DNA of 64,000 nucleotides from Alistipes sp. Lineage in GTDB: Bacteria > Bacteroidota > Bacteroidia > Bacteroidales > Rikenellaceae. The translations under genes were made by a program, and so were the position numbers. The notes under the pieces were generated by a model. It was given only the letters and a program-made list of their open reading frames with translations, searched no databases and had not been told where the DNA came from. Shown here in pieces: positions 19,278-48,137 of this stretch (its first letter is position 1; every line of letters starts with the position of its first letter). The stretch lies in the NCBI GenBank assembly GCA_017517705.1, contig JAFWYM010000002.1, positions 47,337 through 111,336 on the forward strand, in the 5' to 3' direction.

Positions 19278-19751
19278 ACGAAAATTTTTCATTCTCCGTG
19301 TAGCTTTCACACAAAATCATTCACGCCACGAAGCATTCACCCTAAGCAGCCTCATGGATAGCCGGCATCTATGCTCGACAAAAAATAATTTTTTACGCTG
19401 TCTTCATAACATATTGAAGGTTAAATAATTTGATTTCTTTCTAAAATTTATAGTAAAAATATTTAACAAAAAGACTTGACAAGGCCTTTTTCATGCTGTA
19501 TATTTGTACCGTCAAACGTCGCATAACGGATAGTCTTACCTACGAAGTTATTAACACTTGTACATGGGCAATACGGATGTTATCAACATAGTTAATAGAT
19601 TATATCATAACATTATATGCAAGTTATATATTTCTTATTAACAAGAAATTTACAGACTTTTCAACATCATATTTTAGTGCAAATACGGTAGGCAGATTAA
19701 AAATTTGGCGCGTCTGATCCGACAAAGTACAACATATTAAATTATTTAACG
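19278..19751. other. AT-rich intergenic region with DnaA-box-like sites and leader
   Basis: This is the gene-free switch point between the minus-strand block on its left and a plus-strand block on its right. It is much more AT-rich than the genes around it. It holds a plus-strand promoter at 19475-19506 and three exact TTATYAACA sequences (19548-19556, 19580-19588, 19635-19643). No ORF is convincing. It could be a long 5' leader of the phage-like operon, a small-RNA locus, or an origin-like region. Confidence 0.5.
19475..19506 (+). promoter_or_regulatory. Promoter upstream of phage-derived genes
   Basis: CTTG at 19475-19478, a 20-base spacer and TATATTTG at 19499-19506 fit the host primary-sigma consensus. 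A start near 19513 gives an untranslated leader of about 239 bases before the first phage-type gene, unusually long for this window. Confidence 0.6.
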
Positions 19752-20708
19752 ATGAGATTTACAAAAATACCTAATGATGGGGCCTCGTGGGACTCGGCAC
19801 TATGCTACGCCATTGAGACGGAGTCGAGCAACCCGAGCGACGTCGTGGTGGAGATTGTCGATGCCATAAGCGGGGAGCTGATGGGTGTGCGGCGTCTCTA
19901 CGGCATCACCGAGGCGGAGATCGACATTGCCCCCTATGTGCGTAGGGCTATAGGCGTAGCAACACTCTCAACGGCAACACTACAGCTGTCGCCATCGGCA
20001 CGCAAAGTAGTGGTACGTGTCGGCGATGTGGAGGCTCCCGTAAGGCTCTACTATCGCGCAATGATTGACCTGAGCAGGCCGCACATCATCTCGAGCATGG
20101 AGCAACAGCGTGTGGTGGGGTGTGGTGAGGTGATACGTTACACGCTATACGCCAAGCGCGAAGTGCGAGTCACGGTGATCAACAAAAGCCTTCTCAGCCC
20201 CGCACGATTCGCGGCGCTGGACACCTTTGGGATGCCTGTGGAGTTGGCAATAGACACATCGTCGTACAAGGGGGATAGTGTGCCCATAACGGTGGAGATA
20301 AAATGCGATAACTCGGAAGCATACACCATGGACTACACAGTGATGGAGCCCTCGACAGGTGGTTGTCGCCTTGCATGGTACAACAGCGATGGTGGCATCG
20401 AGTGCTACACCTTCCCCCGGGTGATAAGGAGCAGCATCGAATCGACACTTATGACCCAGATAGATGGCGCCATTCCGCGCCTTAGAACCGCAGCAGTACG
20501 ATATCGCCTAATCTCGGCAATGGAGCGCAGCAAGGAGATAGAGCGCATCCTCGGCATCGTACTCTCACCCGATATATTCGAGTGCAACGGCAAGGAGTGT
20601 CGCAGCGTGAAGCTCCTCAGCCGTAACATAGTATTCGACGACCACGGAGGGCTACGTCGCATAGAGTTAGAGATCGAAAAGGGATGGAGGAGAGAGCTAT
20701 GGAGTTAA
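19752..20708 (+). CDS. Phage tail/baseplate-like protein
   Basis: The protein is 318 residues with no signal peptide. The segment LAWYNSDGGIECYTFPR (about residues 219-235) matches a W.N..G..e.ytF pattern I recall from structural proteins of Bacteroidetes phages. The rest is predicted mostly beta. It opens the phage-type block behind a long leader and overlaps the next gene by about ten bases. Base composition and codon use look like the host genes around it. Tail or baseplate is inferred from the motif and from the neighbour, not from a firm family match. Confidence 0.6.
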   Translation: MRFTKIPNDGASWDSALCYAIETESSNPSDVVVEIVDAISGELMGVRRLYGITEAEIDIAPYVRRAIGVATLSTATLQLSPSARKVVVRVGDVEAPVRLYYRAMIDLSRPHIISSMEQQRVVGCGEVIRYTLYAKREVRVTVINKSLLSPARFAALDTFGMPVELAIDTSSYKGDSVPITVEIKCDNSEAYTMDYTVMEPSTGGCRLAWYNSDGGIECYTFPRVIRSSIESTLMTQIDGAIPRLRTAAVRYRLISAMERSKEIERILGIVLSPDIFECNGKECRSVKLLSRNIVFDDHGGLRRIELEIEKGWRRELWS

Positions 20709-23020
20709 GAATCGATGGTGTGGCATGCCCCTTAGTCAATAGAGACGTTCAACTGCCGGGGTACAATGCCAAGAGGCTACGCAGCGTCGAGGCGTGGCGC
20801 GAGGGTGAGGCCCTAAAACTCAAGATAGGGGCAACAACGGAGGTAGAGAGGCTTCTGGGCACCGCCTGCGACCTACACCGCGACGTGGAGTTTAACGATA
20901 GATACCACCACGCCGAATTGATGGTTGATGGCCTCCCCATATTTGCCGGACGTGCGGTGCTCATAGGAGCCGAGCATAGTAGCGAGGGCGACAGCTACGA
21001 GGTGGAGGTGCGTAGCGGCGGCCACGAGTGGGCCGAGAGTGCTGCACTCTCACGCCTGAACAAGAGCAACGTGGAGTGTCACCGCGTAATGAATATGCTC
21101 GGCGTGCACGAGTCGTGGGAGGATGATGGTGCTGTGCGCATGCTCCCCGTGCGTCGCGACAGCTATCCCGAGCCGGCACCTACAGGGCTGTATGTGACAC
21201 ATGAGATGCTGCTACCACAAGACTACTACCCCTTCATCTCGGTGTACGAAGTCATTCGCAGCATTGTCGAAGATAGCGGATATAAGTTGCGTAGCGACTT
21301 CCTCGACACAGCGTTTGCCAAGCGACTGATGTTTAGCGGAGCGTATCACCGCCTGAATGTAGAGGCTGCATATACCGAGATGGGCTTCAAGGCTGTGCGC
21401 ACAACATCCACAAGCGCAGTGGCAGGCTCGTTGGGGCGCGTAGACCTATGTAACCCTCTGATAGCGACAAACGTGGGTAACATTGTCGATACGGTGAACC
21501 CCAATACCAAGGATGAGGCTGGCATCCCCAATGGCGAGGCATACTCCACGGGTGGCTGCTTCCGCTTCGAGGCAGGACGTCCGATATTTGTACCCAAGCG
21601 CGAGGTAAATGCAGCCTTCGACATACACCTGCGCTACACGACCGACTACCGTATAGCATCGTCCACACGTCTCAAGGGTTTCGACCGCATATATGTGGGC
21701 AGCAACTGCTATGTCGACATCGACCTGCAAAACCCCTTCGACGATATGCGCAACGAGGTAGTAGCCGGGGTACAGTACAAGCTATTCATCTTCGACTACG
21801 ACCCCGAGATGATGTATAGCCTAAAGGGGGTTGGAGAGATCAGCTCGGCGGTGACGAGCGTGACATTCGACACAGGAGCCACGGAGAACGTCAGGCTCTA
21901 CTGCAAGAGCCCCGACGATACGTTCTACAGCATATATATGGGCGACTGGGCACTGTATGAGGGCTATGTAGATGAGCGCGGGGAGCGCACCGTGGAGCTC
22001 ACAATACGTACCCCCTACGAGCTATGCACACCGACATCACCACGCCGCTTTGACGACATAACGATCGAGGGTGCAGAGCAGGGGCAACGCATAACCATAC
22101 TCCCGAAGTGCAGCATAACACCCATATTTGGCGGTGCCGCAGGGTATGGTCAAACGCTTAGCTTCGAGGATGTTGCCAACCACGACATCGCACAGTCGAA
22201 GCTCCTCGAGGCCATAGCACACATGTTCAACCTTTGCATCTACTCGCACCGACCCTCACATACGCTCTATATCGAGCCCTACGACGACTTCTTCTCGGGC
22301 GAAGTCTGCGACTGGCGTAATCGTCAGGTGGGCGAGAGCCTCGAAACGAGGGAGTGTGCGGCAGAGAGCTTCGAGATCACGACACTCGGCTACCAGCCTG
22401 CCGATGGAGCTGCAGCACGCATAACGACAGGCGAGGATAAGGAGCTCGGCACGTGGCACCTTGAGAATCGCAGCTACGCAGCAAAGCACGCAAACGACAC
22501 ACGCCTCAACCCGCTCTTTATGCCTACGGCATCGTATGCCGAGATACTATCGTTGGCACCCTCGGCATCGATGCTCACGGTGGGCGATAGAGACCTTATC
22601 GCCAAGGATGACTACATAGCCCCGCGCATAGTCCTATACTATGGTATGCAGCCTCTACCCAAGGGCGAACTATGGCCTCAGGGCACGGGCGACAGATACC
22701 CACTTGCGGCATTCCACATACCAACGATGGGCGAGACGCTGTGCTTCGACGACCGTGAGGGTTGCGAGGGTCTACACCGTTACTTCGACAATGAGCTACG
22801 CGAGAGTGCCCTGCGGCAGCTCCTTACGACAGAGATCGCCCTTCACCCCGAGGAGTATATCGCCCTATACGACCCCGCCAGCGAGGGGGCTAACATACGC
22901 TCGCGCTTCAGGCTCCGCATCGGTGGCGACAGCTCGCTCTTTAGGCTCGAGGAGATCGTGGCATACGATGCCGAGCGCCACGTGGCAACGTGCCGCTTCC
23001 AGCGCCTTATGGCAGATTAA
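20699..23020 (+). CDS. Phage baseplate/tail-tip-like protein
   Basis: From the ATG at 20699 (MELRIDGVACPL), preceded by a GGAGGAGAG stretch, the protein is 773 residues; an in-frame ATG at 20684 is the alternative. The region LLEAIAHMFNLCIY...HTLYIEPYDDFF...DWRN matches a phage pattern I recall (a ..FNL.. stretch, IEPYDDF, DW), seen in tail-associated proteins of Bacteroides and Flavobacterium phages. Its start overlaps the previous stop, so the two are translationally coupled. I infer a particle tail component; there is no enzymatic motif. Confidence 0.65.
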   Translation: MELRIDGVACPLVNRDVQLPGYNAKRLRSVEAWREGEALKLKIGATTEVERLLGTACDLHRDVEFNDRYHHAELMVDGLPIFAGRAVLIGAEHSSEGDSYEVEVRSGGHEWAESAALSRLNKSNVECHRVMNMLGVHESWEDDGAVRMLPVRRDSYPEPAPTGLYVTHEMLLPQDYYPFISVYEVIRSIVEDSGYKLRSDFLDTAFAKRLMFSGAYHRLNVEAAYTEMGFKAVRTTSTSAVAGSLGRVDLCNPLIATNVGNIVDTVNPNTKDEAGIPNGEAYSTGGCFRFEAGRPIFVPKREVNAAFDIHLRYTTDYRIASSTRLKGFDRIYVGSNCYVDIDLQNPFDDMRNEVVAGVQYKLFIFDYDPEMMYSLKGVGEISSAVTSVTFDTGATENVRLYCKSPDDTFYSIYMGDWALYEGYVDERGERTVELTIRTPYELCTPTSPRRFDDITIEGAEQGQRITILPKCSITPIFGGAAGYGQTLSFEDVANHDIAQSKLLEAIAHMFNLCIYSHRPSHTLYIEPYDDFFSGEVCDWRNRQVGESLETRECAAESFEITTLGYQPADGAAARITTGEDKELGTWHLENRSYAAKHANDTRLNPLFMPTASYAEILSLAPSASMLTVGDRDLIAKDDYIAPRIVLYYGMQPLPKGELWPQGTGDRYPLAAFHIPTMGETLCFDDREGCEGLHRYFDNELRESALRQLLTTEIALHPEEYIALYDPASEGANIRSRFRLRIGGDSSLFRLEEIVAYDAERHVATCRFQRLMAD

Positions 23021-23038
23021 CCAACAAACACTGTAATC

Positions 23039-24211
23039 ATGAAAACATCACATTGGCAGGGGCTGCAGAGGTCTTTGCCTCGCCCCTCGCGTCGATATGA
23101 ACGCCTCATTGGCAAGCTCTTAGAGCACGATATGCTCGATGTGAAGAGGTGCGAGCAACACGCAATACACCACATGGTTAAGCACATAGCGAGTCGCCAA
23201 CGTGGCCGCTGCGATGCGATGTACGTGACCGCCGAGCATTTCTGCTGCTCCTACGAGAAGGTGCGAAAGGCGGTATACAATATTGACAATCACATTAACA
23301 ACAACAAGATGAACAGAACAATCAAGATTCGAAACGAGGTCGATGAGACCATCATCGACATCGAGGGTACCATTGGCCTCAGCGAGGCGTGGCAGTTCGA
23401 CAACCCCGACAGCCGCGTGGCTACCTACGAGCGTTTTCGCCAGAGCGTGTCGGAGATTGCCGACATACGCAATGCCCGCATACGTGTCAATATACGCTCG
23501 ACGGGTGGCGATGTGAACGATGCCATCCTTATCTACGAGGCGCTACGTGCCACGGGGGCACACGTCACCACCTGCTGCTACGGATATACTGCCTCGGCAG
23601 CAACCATCGTGGCACAGGCGGCAAGCCAGGGGTGTAGACTCATAGCTCCCTCATCGCTGTACCTCATTCACAACTCACTATGCTCCACAGAGGGTAATGC
23701 CGAGGAACTTCAGGCTGAAGTCGATATGCTACGCCAGACCGACCGTCGCATTGCCGAGATATACGCCACACGCTCGGGACAGAATGTGGAGGTCATCGAG
23801 GCTCTTATGTCCGAGAATGGAGGTCGTGGTCGTTGGCTATCACCCGCGGAGAGCATCGCCGCGTGCCTTGTCGATGCCATCGAGGGTGCGGCCACGGAGG
23901 AGGCGACGGAGCCCTCCATCGTGGAGCGCACAAAACAGAGCCTTAAGAGGCTTCTGGGAGCCATAGGCGTGAATGGCGACGACGGGCACCCCGCGACAGA
24001 GGACGACGTGAACTACATCCCGCGTCAGGTGGTCAACGACGTGGCACCACAGCCTAAGAGCAGTGATGTAACCATCGACTTCGAGGAGCACCAGCGTGCC
24101 GCAGAGCCAACGATGGTTAAGGCCGTGGAGGATCCCGACCCTGTGGACTATGCCATAAGCCCACGTGCCAAGGCCTACGATGGCGATGCACGACGCATGA
24201 AGCTAAGATAG
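23039..24211 (+). CDS. ClpP-like phage head maturation protease with N-terminal extension
   Basis: The ORF encodes 390 residues. The protease core (about 91-270) begins MNRTIKIRNEV at 23309 and shows the S14 features: RSTGGDVNDAILIYEAL, the serine region YGYTASAATIVAQAAS and the histidine in LIHNSL. Such enzymes cut scaffold or capsid protein during head assembly. Residues 1-90 are an extra basic, His/Cys-rich piece (AIHHMVKHIASRQRG, HFCCSYEKVRKAVYNI) that could be a helix-turn-helix. It could be a separate small gene fused in frame, or an artefact if translation starts at 23309. The capsid gene follows after 75 bases. Confidence 0.75.
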   Translation: MKTSHWQGLQRSLPRPSRRYERLIGKLLEHDMLDVKRCEQHAIHHMVKHIASRQRGRCDAMYVTAEHFCCSYEKVRKAVYNIDNHINNNKMNRTIKIRNEVDETIIDIEGTIGLSEAWQFDNPDSRVATYERFRQSVSEIADIRNARIRVNIRSTGGDVNDAILIYEALRATGAHVTTCCYGYTASAATIVAQAASQGCRLIAPSSLYLIHNSLCSTEGNAEELQAEVDMLRQTDRRIAEIYATRSGQNVEVIEALMSENGGRGRWLSPAESIAACLVDAIEGAATEEATEPSIVERTKQSLKRLLGAIGVNGDDGHPATEDDVNYIPRQVVNDVAPQPKSSDVTIDFEEHQRAAEPTMVKAVEDPDPVDYAISPRAKAYDGDARRMKLR

Positions 24212-24286
24212 ACGAATAGACAAACAAACAGTGGATATATATCCTATAAACCAATCATTTACTAACATCTAAAAATCATTTTCATT

Positions 24287-25264
24287 ATGGGACTTATTGA
24301 GAATCCTAAGACCTACACCGGTCGCGACCTTGAGACAATCTTTTTCCGCCCAATGTTTACGGGTGCCAACGCCGAGGAGCTCGGTATTCGTGTGCTCTAC
24401 AATATGCCGGTGCCGACAACGATACAGCTTTGGAGCCCGCAGTCGACCATACTCAAGGAGTATAGTGGCGGCTGGACAGGTGGCGACTCGGCCAATAGAA
24501 TGCAGAAGACCATCGACATGAGTAAGATCAAGGCCGAGGCATCCTTCTCGGCAGAGAGCTACTTCCAGCAGGTATACGAGCTCATCGTAGGTCGTGCCGA
24601 TGTTAACCTTGACGACCTCACAGGCACGGAACTCGAGCAGGCCGAGACAGAGATGTTCCGCAAGGCTATAGCCGAAAACCTGCGCGTGCTGATGTGGATC
24701 GGCGATAAGGGGGCAATGAACTACGCGAATATTAACGGCTTCCTGACCTTGGCGTACACCTATGCCGACGAGACGGATCTTCCCGTTGTGGATGTTGCGG
24801 AGGCACCATCGAAGGATAACATCCTCGACATCTTTAAGCGTATGTGGCAGAGTGCATCGCCCGAGCTCAAGGCCTTGAAGAGCGAAGGCCACCTCGCCTT
24901 CTACGTCACGTCGGACGTATGCGATGCCTACGAGGAGTACCTCGACAGCTGTGGTAGCGATGGCGCATATACCGACCTATTATCGGGACGTCGCGAGCTT
25001 ACGTACCACGGCATCAAGATCGTGGATATGGGTATATCGCAGTATATGCCACTACCCTACAACGATCAGTCGACCCACTGCCTCCTCACCGATAGTCGCA
25101 ACCTCGCCCTGGCCGTTAACACCGCCGATATGCCCGGCTCAGAGGTACGTATGTGGTACAACCCCGACGAGATGGAGAATCGCCAGCGTGCCACATTCCT
25201 TGTGGGTGCAGAGATCCTCGACGAGAACCTGCTTGTTCTTGCTCGATTTGAGCAATCAGCATAA
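24287..25264 (+). CDS. Phage major capsid protein
   Basis: The 325-residue protein starts MGLIENPKTYTGRDLETIFFRPMF. It fits an HK97-fold capsid in size, in its position between protease and portal, and in the C-terminal end VRMWYNPDEMENRQRATFLVGAEILDENLLVLARF, which resembles the P-domain end of capsid proteins. It is complete, with no frameshift. It would form the shell after cleavage by the upstream protease. Capsid identity rests on pattern and gene order. Confidence 0.75.
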   Translation: MGLIENPKTYTGRDLETIFFRPMFTGANAEELGIRVLYNMPVPTTIQLWSPQSTILKEYSGGWTGGDSANRMQKTIDMSKIKAEASFSAESYFQQVYELIVGRADVNLDDLTGTELEQAETEMFRKAIAENLRVLMWIGDKGAMNYANINGFLTLAYTYADETDLPVVDVAEAPSKDNILDIFKRMWQSASPELKALKSEGHLAFYVTSDVCDAYEEYLDSCGSDGAYTDLLSGRRELTYHGIKIVDMGISQYMPLPYNDQSTHCLLTDSRNLALAVNTADMPGSEVRMWYNPDEMENRQRATFLVGAEILDENLLVLARFEQSA

Positions 25265-25267
25265 ACT

Positions 25268-26500
25268 ATGTCGGTTATGTCTAAGGATAGAGTATCTACA
25301 CGCGTGGTAGCCACACAAAACCGCTCGGAGCCCCTTTTGGGCTCGGGCGGTGGTGGCACCGCCACACACAAGGTATGGCAGTGGGGCGGCGACAATATGT
25401 TGCCATACGCCCTATCGCTGTTGGCACGCCGCTCTGTAGCACACCGCCGCATCATCAACGACAAGGCTGATTATATCGCCGGCAAGGGATTTACTTATGC
25501 CGAGGGCTCGGCCGAGTTGAAGTATATGGTAGAGCATGCCAATGGCAGTGGCGAGTCGCTGCATAGCATCCTGCGACGCATCGCCATGGACGAGGCGATG
25601 TTTGGCAACGCCTTCTTGGAGGTTGTCACCGACGCTCGTCGATCATTCCTCTCATTCTACCACATCGACGCCTCAAAGTGTCGTGTGGCATGCGACTCGA
25701 AACACGTTGTGCTGCATCACGACTGGTCGCAATTTACTACCGCACAGGCTGTGACGCTGCCGCTGTATCCTCTGTTCGAGCCTATGGCTGATGGTACGCT
25801 CCGCACCGTAGTACACTATAAGAGTTATGAGCCTATGTTCTCGCACTACGGTGTAGCACCATACATCGCTGCACTGGATGCCGCGGCCATCGTCTATAAG
25901 ACCGACCGCTGGAACATATCGCGCATAGATAACGCCTTCCAACTCTCGGGCGTCATGATGCTCGATGGTGCCGTGGATAACGAGGAGGAGGCCGACCGCG
26001 TTGTGCGCCTTGCGGAGGAGAAGTTTGCCGGCAACCCCGGACAGGTGCTCTTCGTGCTGCGCGACAATGCCGAGGGCGACAACTCGCGCTTCATCCCCAT
26101 CAACACCTCGACCGATGGCGACTGGCATACGTTGCACACCGTAGCCGAATCGGACTTAGTCGTCGCACACTCGTGGTTTCGCTCGCTCAGCGGCTTAGAT
26201 TACGCCTCGGGCTTCTCCACAGACCGCATACTTCAGGAGTATGAGGTGGCGCTCAATACAGTGATCCTGCCTATACAGGCTCAGCTGCTCGAGCCCATAC
26301 GTGCCATAATAGCCTCCGAGCTGGGTGTCGATGCCTCGTCGTTAGAGGTTGTCAACCGCCCACCTTCGCGCTCAAAGCCCCTATATATGCGAGTATGGGA
26401 GGCACGACGTGCCGATGGCCTCGACTACGATGAAAGCGACCCCGAGCAGCAGCGCTTCCTTGCCGAGATTACGAAGTATAACATACGATCAATCGAATAG
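25268..26500 (+). CDS. Phage portal protein
   Basis: The 410-residue protein shows portal-type features: WGGDNMLPYALSLLARRSVAHRRIINDKADYIAGKGF near the N-terminus, MDEAMFGNAFLEVV and SFYHIDASKCRV, and the long-helix segment GFSTDRILQEYEVALNTVILPIQAQLLEPI typical of HK97/PBSX-type portals. The portal forms the dodecameric ring for DNA entry and tail joining. It starts three bases after the capsid stop. A portal without a nearby terminase is odd, because its packaging motor is missing here. Confidence 0.85.
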   Translation: MSVMSKDRVSTRVVATQNRSEPLLGSGGGGTATHKVWQWGGDNMLPYALSLLARRSVAHRRIINDKADYIAGKGFTYAEGSAELKYMVEHANGSGESLHSILRRIAMDEAMFGNAFLEVVTDARRSFLSFYHIDASKCRVACDSKHVVLHHDWSQFTTAQAVTLPLYPLFEPMADGTLRTVVHYKSYEPMFSHYGVAPYIAALDAAAIVYKTDRWNISRIDNAFQLSGVMMLDGAVDNEEEADRVVRLAEEKFAGNPGQVLFVLRDNAEGDNSRFIPINTSTDGDWHTLHTVAESDLVVAHSWFRSLSGLDYASGFSTDRILQEYEVALNTVILPIQAQLLEPIRAIIASELGVDASSLEVVNRPPSRSKPLYMRVWEARRADGLDYDESDPEQQRFLAEITKYNIRSIE

Positions 26501-26502
26501 CT

Positions 26503-26961
26503 ATGAATACCTTAATCACACCTACGGATGTTATGCAACTCGCCTTTAGTCGCGATGAGCTCTACAACACGAGCGTAATCACCAACCTCGACATAGCTGC
26601 CGCCGAGGAGCGATACCTACACCCCATTGTCGGGCGTGCGCTCTACGACAAGCTACTCAAGGGTAACTACCCGAGCCTCACGAGTGACTACGTTGCGCCC
26701 ATGGTTGCCGCATGGACGCGCTATATCGTCGAGCCCCTCTTGGCCTCGCGTTGCGACGTATGTATGGCAACAGGAGGCTCTTCGGCCGATAACGAGGCTA
26801 CCACGGAGCGTTGCCGCTCGCTGCGCCTCAGGGCTCGAACACTCTCACGTGCTCTCGCTGAGCATCTCAACACTCAGGCGTCGGACTACCCCGAGTACAA
26901 CCCCGACACAAACCCTTTAAATCGTTGTTCTATAGATGGAAATATTGTTCAAGTATATTAG
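26503..26961 (+). CDS. Head-tail connector-like protein (DUF6712-like)
   Basis: The 152-residue protein starts MNTLITPTDVMQLAF, two bases after the portal stop. The segment IAAAEERYLHPIVGRALYDKLL and the following helix resemble the small head-completion proteins of Bacteroidetes phages (DUF6712-type). It would sit between portal and tail. Its 3' end overlaps the holin start by 26 bases. Confidence 0.6.
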   Translation: MNTLITPTDVMQLAFSRDELYNTSVITNLDIAAAEERYLHPIVGRALYDKLLKGNYPSLTSDYVAPMVAAWTRYIVEPLLASRCDVCMATGGSSADNEATTERCRSLRLRARTLSRALAEHLNTQASDYPEYNPDTNPLNRCSIDGNIVQVY

Positions 26962-27361
26962 TGCCACGCTCGCCGCTATCGTGGCTACACTATGCCCCGT
27001 AGCACCCCTCGTTGCTACGGCCCTGCTCTTCGTCGCCATCGACTTCTGCACCGGTATCGCCGCCTCGCGTGCTATCGCTCGGCGCGAGGGACGAAAGTGG
27101 TGGCTGGAGAGCCGCAAGGCGTGGCGCACGGTGGCCAAGGCAGGCTTTGTAGCCATCGCCATCGTCATGATGTGGATTGTCGACAGCTGCATCCTCGGCT
27201 TCATGCACCTCAACCTCGCCAACATATTCACAGGCTTTGTCTGTGGCGTGGAGTTGTGGTCGTTTCTGGAGAATGCCGCAACCATCAGCCGCTCACCACT
27301 CTTTGAGTGGCTCGGGAGATGGGTTAAGCGCCGCGTAGGAGAGGAGGTGGGCGATGAGTAG
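26936..27361 (+). CDS. Phage holin family protein
   Basis: The 141-residue protein has three hydrophobic segments (ISATLAAIVATLCPVAPLVATALLF, AGFVAIAIVMMWIV, ANIFTGFVCGVELWSFL) separated by a basic loop (ARREGRKWWLESRKAWRT), matching the toxin-secretion/phage-lysis holin pattern. It overlaps the connector upstream and the lysozyme-like gene downstream. It would permeabilise the inner membrane so that the cell-wall enzyme can act. Confidence 0.8.
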   Translation: MEILFKYISATLAAIVATLCPVAPLVATALLFVAIDFCTGIAASRAIARREGRKWWLESRKAWRTVAKAGFVAIAIVMMWIVDSCILGFMHLNLANIFTGFVCGVELWSFLENAATISRSPLFEWLGRWVKRRVGEEVGDE

Positions 27362-27758
27362 AGGCCTTAGAAACCGTAACCCGGGGAATATACGACACTC
27401 GGGGGTACACTTTAAGGGCGAGGTTACACCGAGCCGTGATGCCTCGTTCAAGGAGTTTTCATCCATGGACTATGGATACCGAGCTATGTTTGTGGTGCTC
27501 GACAGCTACCGTCGTCGCTATGGACGGAACACCATACGCACGATGATAGAGCGCTACGCTCCACCCTCGGAGAACTTCACCGACGGCTACGTGCGCTTCA
27601 TCGCCCGTCGTACGGGCATCGCCCCCGACGAGGAGCTCGACACTCGCTCGCCGCGCGACATGATACCCGTTGTTGCAGCCATGAGCGAGATAGAGAATGA
27701 CGTGGCTCCCGTGATGGCGGATATCGAGGCGGGCTGGGAGCTCTTTATTAGGAAATAA
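27354..27758 (+). CDS. Phage structural protein P5/lysozyme-like protein
   Basis: The 134-residue protein opens SRGLRNRNPGNIRHSGVHFKGE, the RNNNPGNIR signature of the phage P5-type muramidase-like family. The later FSSMDYGYRAMFVVLDSYRR and IERYAPPSENFTDGYVRFIA fit as well. These proteins are thought to digest peptidoglycan during lysis or entry. It overlaps the holin by eight bases and is followed by a strong terminator, closing the block. Confidence 0.85.
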   Translation: MSRGLRNRNPGNIRHSGVHFKGEVTPSRDASFKEFSSMDYGYRAMFVVLDSYRRRYGRNTIRTMIERYAPPSENFTDGYVRFIARRTGIAPDEELDTRSPRDMIPVVAAMSEIENDVAPVMADIEAGWELFIRK

Positions 27759-27770
27759 CACGTCGTAAGC

Positions 27771-27804
27771 GTGGGGTTGGCTTCATTGGCCAGCCCCACT
27801 TTTA
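27771..27804 (+). terminator. Intrinsic terminator of phage-derived operon
   Basis: GTGGGGTTGGC at 27771-27781 pairs with GCCAGCCCCAC at 27789-27799 (one G-T wobble), followed by TTTT. It lies 13 bases after the last phage-type stop. Confidence 0.85.
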
Positions 27805-48105: not shown

Positions 48106-48137
48106 CAAATATACAACATTCTGAGGCCGTTGTCAAG
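48106..48137 (-). promoter_or_regulatory. Promoter pointing into non-coding region
   Basis: Minus strand: CTTG (48137-48134), 20 bases, TATATTTG (48113-48106). No gene lies downstream for 1.6 kb, only the structured stretch and repeats, which suggests an RNA product. Confidence 0.5.

Follow-up and report, generated by a model that had tools for sequence, protein, structure and literature searches.

The gene transfer agent (GTA) of Rhodobacter capsulatus (RcGTA) encodes its terminase within the cluster of head and tail genes and has a complete, siphovirus-like tail. For FpGTA, the agent of Faecalibacterium, the available text of its report (PMC12946183) describes particles with no identifiable tails and an operon I that occurs in all 12 Faecalibacterium genomes examined there, and not in Gemmiger or Subdoligranulum. 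Six features define a GTA in the available text of Kogay et al. 2022 (PMC9662315). Here, we describe a locus in a 64,000-nucleotide stretch of an Alistipes sp. genome (Rikenellaceae; contig JAFWYM010000002.1; hereafter, the window, meaning the whole stretch that was analysed). Its list of open reading frames (ORFs) contains eight intact, overlapping or tightly spaced ORFs (g1–g8; 19752-27758, all on the + strand), and family assignment by sequence comparison is secure for four of them, i.e., the head-maturation protease, the portal, the holin, and the endolysin-like protein. The block lies on contig C15 of its own genome, and a terminase locus lies on contig C38. Judged from gene sequences, these two loci probably encode an independently domesticated GTA-like particle system that is inherited mainly vertically in Rikenellaceae and has a reduced or absent tail, a reading to which we assign a probability of about 0.63. 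Searches of open-licence papers listed none that describes a system of this kind for Alistipes, Rikenellaceae, or Bacteroidota.

The distribution of the two loci was determined in 151 genomes of the genus Alistipes, 200 of the family Rikenellaceae (22 genera), and 295 of the order, most of them draft or metagenome-assembled, for which absence from a single genome is weak evidence. The window portal matched 143 of the 151 Alistipes genomes (59/61 among the best), mostly in single copy. Six of the eight genomes without a portal are <85% complete, and g2 was detected in G016 and G129 and not in the other six portal-less genomes. At the family level, the portal profile (A1) matched 181 of 200 genomes (105/109 among the best) in 17 of 22 genera, and portal matches in the order sample were limited to eight of 295 genomes (three of the same family and five sporadic others). 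Terminase matches were found in 142 of the 151 Alistipes genomes and in 181 of the 200 family genomes (105/109 among the best; 18 of 22 genera). Neither portal nor terminase was found in four genera (genus codes g2, g10, g12, and g22), and one genus (code g15, a single 57%-complete genome) has a terminase without a portal. The co-occurrence of portal and terminase over the 22 genera is significant when kinship is ignored (Fisher's exact test: p 0.0007).

The initial annotation had reported no terminase, which is correct for the block and incorrect for the genome: a PF03237 search found one terminase, the 478 aa large subunit (terL) on contig C38 (phrog_38, 4.6e-90). Of the two missing functions that the annotation proposed to seek elsewhere in the genome, the tape measure was not recovered; the candidate (best E 0.025) was rejected given that the gene reads as PurB. 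The Walker A, Walker B, and RNase-H acidic positions of the terminase are invariant in nine aligned rows. Upstream of the terminase are a 97 aa protein (hereafter, protein X) and a divergently oriented S24/CI-type repressor with helix-turn-helix (HTH) and peptidase S24 domains. Among 37 terminase loci (20 from close Alistipes, three from distant Alistipes, and 14 from other genera), the repressor stands beside the terminase in all 37 (20/20, 3/3, and 14/14, respectively), including L245 and L246 in which it is just 38% alike, and protein X is present in 34 (20 close, two distant, and 12 from other genera). In G186 (L243), the repressor-X-terminase triad is located ~4.5 kb upstream of g1, an arrangement that would fit a single ancestral cluster.

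Protein distances of the portal and the terminase are correlated (Mantel r 0.79, p 0.0001; 17 genomes), as are those of the portal and potA (Mantel r 0.78, p 0.0001) in eight close Alistipes that encode potA beside the terminase. Ratios of nonsynonymous to synonymous substitution (dN/dS; Nei-Gojobori method, pairs with dS 0.05 to 1.2) had medians of 0.023 for prfA, 0.078 for the repressor, 0.13 for terL, 0.20 for the portal, 0.28–0.45 for g2–g4 and g6–g8, and 0.42 for protein X, with the reservation that near-saturation values are rough and that the pair sets differ between genes. Based on these ratios, the block is under purifying selection, as the initial annotation had proposed to check, with block-gene medians ranging from 0.20–0.53. 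All seven stops that were flagged in block genes of the 80 named loci are shifts of the natural C-terminus; one more was flagged in protein X of L073, outside these seven cases.

To describe gene order, we compared 20 stretches of 16–20 kb, comprising 19 orthologous blocks and a prophage-like relative (L050). The full set of eight genes, in unchanged order, was found for 15 of these 19 blocks, and g7 alone was not found in L040, L041, and L045. In a separate comparison, L117 gave partial matches (70% of g1 and 68% of g2 covered). Each block gene was detected in 46–51 of 51 twenty-kb named Alistipes loci. In the named genome collection, the portal profile matched 256 related stretches, the best 80 of which were kept. 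The synteny that the initial annotation proposed to look for in relatives holds for most of the eight-gene blocks, and their neighbours vary: prfA lies upstream in 27 of the 72 loci having at least 9 kb of upstream sequence.

Three sequence-level features of the GTA definition can be recognized in this system. Its particle proteins belong to tailed-phage families (portal, protease, holin, endolysin, and terminase), and a prophage relative has its genes in colinear order. The genes are endogenized, often at several loci in GTAs, and here form two loci that are usually single copy family-wide. Inheritance appears mostly vertical on the basis of distance correlation in close Alistipes, rather than tree congruence, and the system is nearly restricted to one family. 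The other three features of the definition are packaging of mostly random host DNA, a head too small to take up all of the agent's own genes, and delivery of the DNA into further cells. The system may work like a GTA, and we stop short of calling it a proven one.

Genomes G006 (contig C31) and G109 (contig C17) contain a second, divergent prophage-like copy beside their own block. The order in G006 is g1-g2-tape measure-82 aa-protease-capsid-171 aa-portal-connector, and the structural order is the same in G109. Because these relatives share it, the tail-first order is ancestral; the initial annotation had described the order correctly and considered it unusual, and no rearrangement needs to be assumed. 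The prophage portals show 48–50% identity to the window portal, and the prophage terminase, found by sequence match, shows 59% identity to that of the window genome. Other ORFs in the G006 region read by eye as integrase, small terminase, and reverse transcriptase. The tape measures are 893 aa (G006) and 770 aa (G109) in length and have PHROG tape-measure matches. When the integrase, small-terminase-like, and tape-measure proteins of the G006 prophage alone were used as queries (E 1e-3), none of the 51 Alistipes loci that had been scanned for block genes showed a match; other integrase types were not searched for. As a separate observation, the reverse transcriptase-like ORF of the G006 prophage (L053:12737-15680) has neighbours that look like a diversity-generating retroelement.

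Traces of the tape measure persist outside Alistipes. In eight of 14 blocks from other genera, the slot between g2 and g3 holds a short ORF (stop-to-stop frames of 79–255) that ends with the motif Y(V/I)(L/V)ES(D/E)I, which is found in none of 81 Alistipes loci, 75 of which match both g2 and g3. The motif was also located in 81 viral-contig loci, comprising L259 and the 80 stretches that were listed out of at least 120 with a match. For 78 of these 81 listed hits, its distance to the C-terminus is 18–40 aa, and 77 of the 78 are in frames of at least 300 aa or open to the left. Ten motif proteins that were picked for length, together with that of L259, were compared to protein families: nine matched tape-measure families (two of the nine with an endolysin family as best match), and the tenth matched unknown families only. 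Profile comparison alone between the short ORFs and the prophage tape measures was not significant (probability 0.8%), and a tblastn search of the end peptide against the phage collection gave no match. The end-motif and family matches indicate that other genera retain just the C-terminal end of the tape measure and that Alistipes has lost it. A 171 aa protein, which we guess to be the tail tube and for which Pfam, PHROG, and PDB gave nothing credible, occurs in up to 12 of the 14 blocks from other genera (one query) and in eight of 51 Alistipes loci (any of four queries). A 138 aa upstream gene of another genus is likewise matched in eight of 51 Alistipes loci. The persistence of these two genes points to uneven loss of tail genes within Alistipes.

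The eight genes and their flanking signals are listed in Table 1; the positions, strand, and intact frames given by the initial annotation were all recovered, including the protease, capsid-like, portal, holin, and endolysin-like genes, as were the promoter and strong terminator that it had placed around them. Neither g1 nor g2 matched Pfam, PHROG, or NCBIfam. A tail-tip or adaptor role is possible for g1, and a distal-tail or baseplate role for g2. PDB profile matches of g1 (best E 0.0011, no significant stretch) are not credible as identity, and a profile search of PDB with g2 gave no match. The protease part of g3 is well supported (PF00574, 3e-26; phrog_94, 1e-34), and its 80–90 aa part is a separate ORF in prophages (L050, L055) and several other genera. 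Matches of g4 are weak (phrog_11320 of unknown function, 1e-6; phrog_1623 'virion structural protein', 3e-5), and its prophage counterpart matches phrog_1623 at 2e-15. The score of g5 against the PBSX portal model is below the model cut-off. The next gene, g6, which comes directly after the portal in the loci examined, is a probable head-tail connector. The native composition claimed for the block was also upheld: its GC content is 0.545–0.572 (2-kb windows), compared to 0.44–0.58 across the window, and no tRNA lies beside it.

Table 1 Genes and flanking signals of the phage-derived block, in window positions
Feature	Position	Strand	Description
Promoter-like site	19476..19506	+	TTGACAA-N16-TATATTTG; near-consensus, ~245 bp 5' of g1
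g1	19752..20708	+	318 aa; counterpart of the protein preceding g2 in prophages
g2	20684..23020	+	778 aa; corresponds to a prophage protein of 845-884 aa whose gene directly precedes the tape measure
g3	23039..24211	+	390 aa ORF; 80-90 aa protein fused or run on to ClpP-like head-maturation protease
g4	24287..25264	+	325 aa; major capsid-like protein; weak PHROG matches
g5	25268..26500	+	410 aa; portal protein; PF04860 2.7e-10 (just above cut-off), phrog_11226/12
g6	26503..26961	+	152 aa; DUF6712-like (PF20459 3e-4, below cut-off)
g7	26936..27361	+	141 aa; holin (Phage_holin_4_1); PF05105 2.8e-12, phrog_199
g8	27354..27758	+	134 aa; endolysin / muramidase-like protein; phrog_873 1.4e-41
Intrinsic terminator	27771..27799	+	12-pair stem, T-rich tail; ends block

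The pattern TTGACA-N16-18-TAnnTTTG precedes g1 in 41 of 62 loci, compared to five of 1020 random 350-bp pieces, and the TTGACAA-type site occurs eight times in the genome and not once for the reversed control. TTGACAA-N16-TATNTTTG is common to the block and the terminase locus. A dedicated shared operator was nevertheless rejected: a repeat family, with its ATPase gene, accounts for five of the eight sites in the genome, and a further site precedes an unrelated 124 aa ORF. Because most genome sites lie outside the two loci, the motif is better described as a strong promoter type than as the mark of a dedicated regulon. Among the 37 terminase loci, all of the 20 closest Alistipes showed the motif, whereas it was detected in none of the remaining 17. 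The block terminator has a minimum free energy (MFE) of -25.5 kcal/mol (fold z -4.5); terminator-like sites overall are not enriched (five observed vs. 5.5 expected). The ~245 bp leader between promoter and g1 (window 19507-19751), with similar spacing in many relatives, is possibly a regulatory RNA. The dispersed repeats (window 48106-48136, - strand; contigs C16, C32, C38, and C6) share the extended promoter TTGACAA..GCCT..ATGTTGTATATTTG. The copy on C6 (L160) precedes a 413 aa ATPase-like gene (family read by eye); the four other copies, including that of the window, look like derivatives without this gene, and two copies retain a VTPVTPVTP-type tail.

Records in virus catalogues also contain the block. 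Two human faecal scaffolds that are recorded as 'Bacteriophage sp.' without annotation (L241, L242; MT838805.1, MT838736.1) resemble Alistipes chromosome with block genes, one of them continuing into comEC, and eight IMG/VR contigs (L233–L240) contain block genes as well. Virus catalogues therefore include this host locus; possible contamination led us not to use these records as packaging evidence.

If the two loci work as a GTA-like system, derepression in part of the cells would switch on both of them. Capsid, protease, and portal, judging from their families, would assemble heads, and the terminase, beside which no phage genome was found, would fill these with host DNA. Holin and endolysin would lyse the cell and free the particles, from which packaged DNA would reach related cells. 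The particle is expected to be tailless or to bear just a very short tail because the tape measure is gone and the tail-tube-like gene is mostly undetected in Alistipes. It is also conceivable, although unlikely, that the system is a family-wide Bacteroidota GTA that dispenses with tail injection, in which DNase-proof heads are released and recipients take up the DNA through the competence channel. This would explain the loss of the tape measure and tail-tube-like genes, as well as why comEC directly follows the block in many Alistipes species; ComEC serves DNA entry into RcGTA recipients, according to the available text of PMC10883770. Among 86 loci having at least 4 kb downstream, comEC starts within 2.5 kb past the portal end in 21. 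As a sign of DNA delivery this proximity is suggestive only, and it may be inherited synteny of one clade. The competence channel gene stands just behind g8 in one large Alistipes species set (e.g., L129, L131, and L149).

Several observations weigh against the GTA-like interpretation. The fastest evolving gene, g1, has a high median dN/dS (0.53), the holin g7 was undetected in five of 51 Alistipes loci, and internal stops are listed in two portals (G043, G052) and six terminases (G058, G119, G047, G183, G221, and G231), and some terminases are partial. G100 (L042) is without g2, g3, g7, and g8; G129 (L256) retains g1, g2, g3, part of g6, and g7, and has lost capsid and portal; and neither portal nor g2 was found in G110 (99% complete). 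These three lineages, all of which retain a terminase match, show that the particle is dispensable. In the portal tree (49 rows), prophage branches are very long and, with the far prophages included, Alistipes does not fall on one side of a branch; the root relative to the prophages is fixed neither by this tree nor by a quick tree without the far prophages. No small terminase subunit was found beside the terminase, nor was a receptor-binding protein or a full tail set found. In the available text of the faecal study (PMC12946183), Rikenellaceae rank with the leading families by abundance in total faecal DNA, other families dominate the particle fractions (a difference that is not significant), and 23 of 25 GTA-type events fall in Ruminococcaceae, Oscillospiraceae, and Christensenellaceae, which provides mild evidence against constant activity in Rikenellaceae.

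A domesticated particle with a function other than gene transfer, such as lysis-linked killing of kin or interference with infecting phages through capsid, portal, or terminase parts that act as decoys, is a minority possibility. It agrees with the negative results for a full tail set, a receptor-binding gene, and a small terminase, with the loss of the tape measure and detection of the tail-tube-like gene in just eight of 51 Alistipes loci, and with partial loss in G100, G110, and G129; interference is conceivable given the related prophages in the same genus. Against it stand the median dN/dS of the terminase, which is the lowest of the structural and packaging genes (measured from closer relatives than the others), and the matches of the terminase across the family; moreover, holin and endolysin lie beside the head genes, as would suit a release of filled heads. 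A protein compartment or empty, encapsulin-like capsid without DNA packaging is suggested by the content of the block itself (capsid, protease, and portal, with no terminase), and is very improbable given that portal, holin, and endolysin are kept; the GTA-like option is favoured because a motif-bearing terminase is co-conserved elsewhere in the genome.

Head and packaging genes without a full tail set, a repressor whose HTH and peptidase S24 domains resemble those of CI repressors, and integrase-like matches some kilobases away in single loci (L213, L256) recall a capsid-forming phage satellite, i.e., a capsid-forming phage-inducible chromosomal island (cf-PICI), that uses helper-phage tails. 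We take an own integrase and a mobile distribution to characterize such elements; here, the G006-type integrase is unmatched in the 51 Alistipes loci, the two loci are unlinked, spread is family-wide with a vertical signal, and lysis genes are present, making a satellite highly unlikely. The least probable explanation is the plain remnant of a prophage in decay, or the insertion of related prophages on several independent occasions. The partial losses, the single genomes with stops within portal or terminase, and the prophage relatives in G006 and G109 speak for it, yet the stops flagged in block genes of the 80 named loci fall at natural C-termini, the genes are mostly colinear across the genus, and the prophage copies are distinct in sequence from the window block. 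A complete prophage at the site would hold integrase, small terminase, and full tape measure, and 0/51 Alistipes loci match these G006 proteins; of the findings in relatives that the initial annotation had named as contrary to its view, a full prophage was thus not encountered with these queries, and partial loss was. It had left the choice between a domesticated particle and an old remnant; family-wide, mostly single-copy conservation, colinearity, purifying selection, and the co-conserved, unlinked terminase locus favour the former and disfavour the latter.

Among known systems, FpGTA is the nearest parallel to the proposed GTA-like system of Alistipes, which resembles it in belonging to a gut anaerobe and in having two unlinked operons that include holin and endolysin. 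The FpGTA host belongs to Bacillota, its terminase sits with portal and capsid, unlike in Alistipes, and its particles, proteome, and packaged DNA have been shown (PMC12946183, available text). With RcGTA and its alphaproteobacterial relatives, it shares phage-derived head, portal, protease, and lysis genes, vertical inheritance, and more than one locus. No relation beyond generic portal similarity was seen: the RcGTA portal Rcc01684 was the sole PDB sequence match of the portal profile (E 0.0055, 55 columns, no significant stretch), and, in contrast to RcGTA, the Alistipes terminase stands next to an S24/CI-type repressor at a distance from the head genes, and the tape measure is shortened or missing. 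If the proposal is right, this common family of the gut would possess a DNA-exchange system that arose independently and is passed on stably as part of its own genome, and the selection that keeps such agents would become testable in a genus with cultured members. Also close are the prophages of G006 and G109, which have the same order from g1 and g2 through protease and capsid to portal and connector and a related terminase, and differ in their long tape measures and, in G006, in the additional genes read by eye. Together, the full tape measure of these prophages, its remaining end in other genera, and its absence in Alistipes would form a natural series of graded tail retention that leads from phage to host organ.

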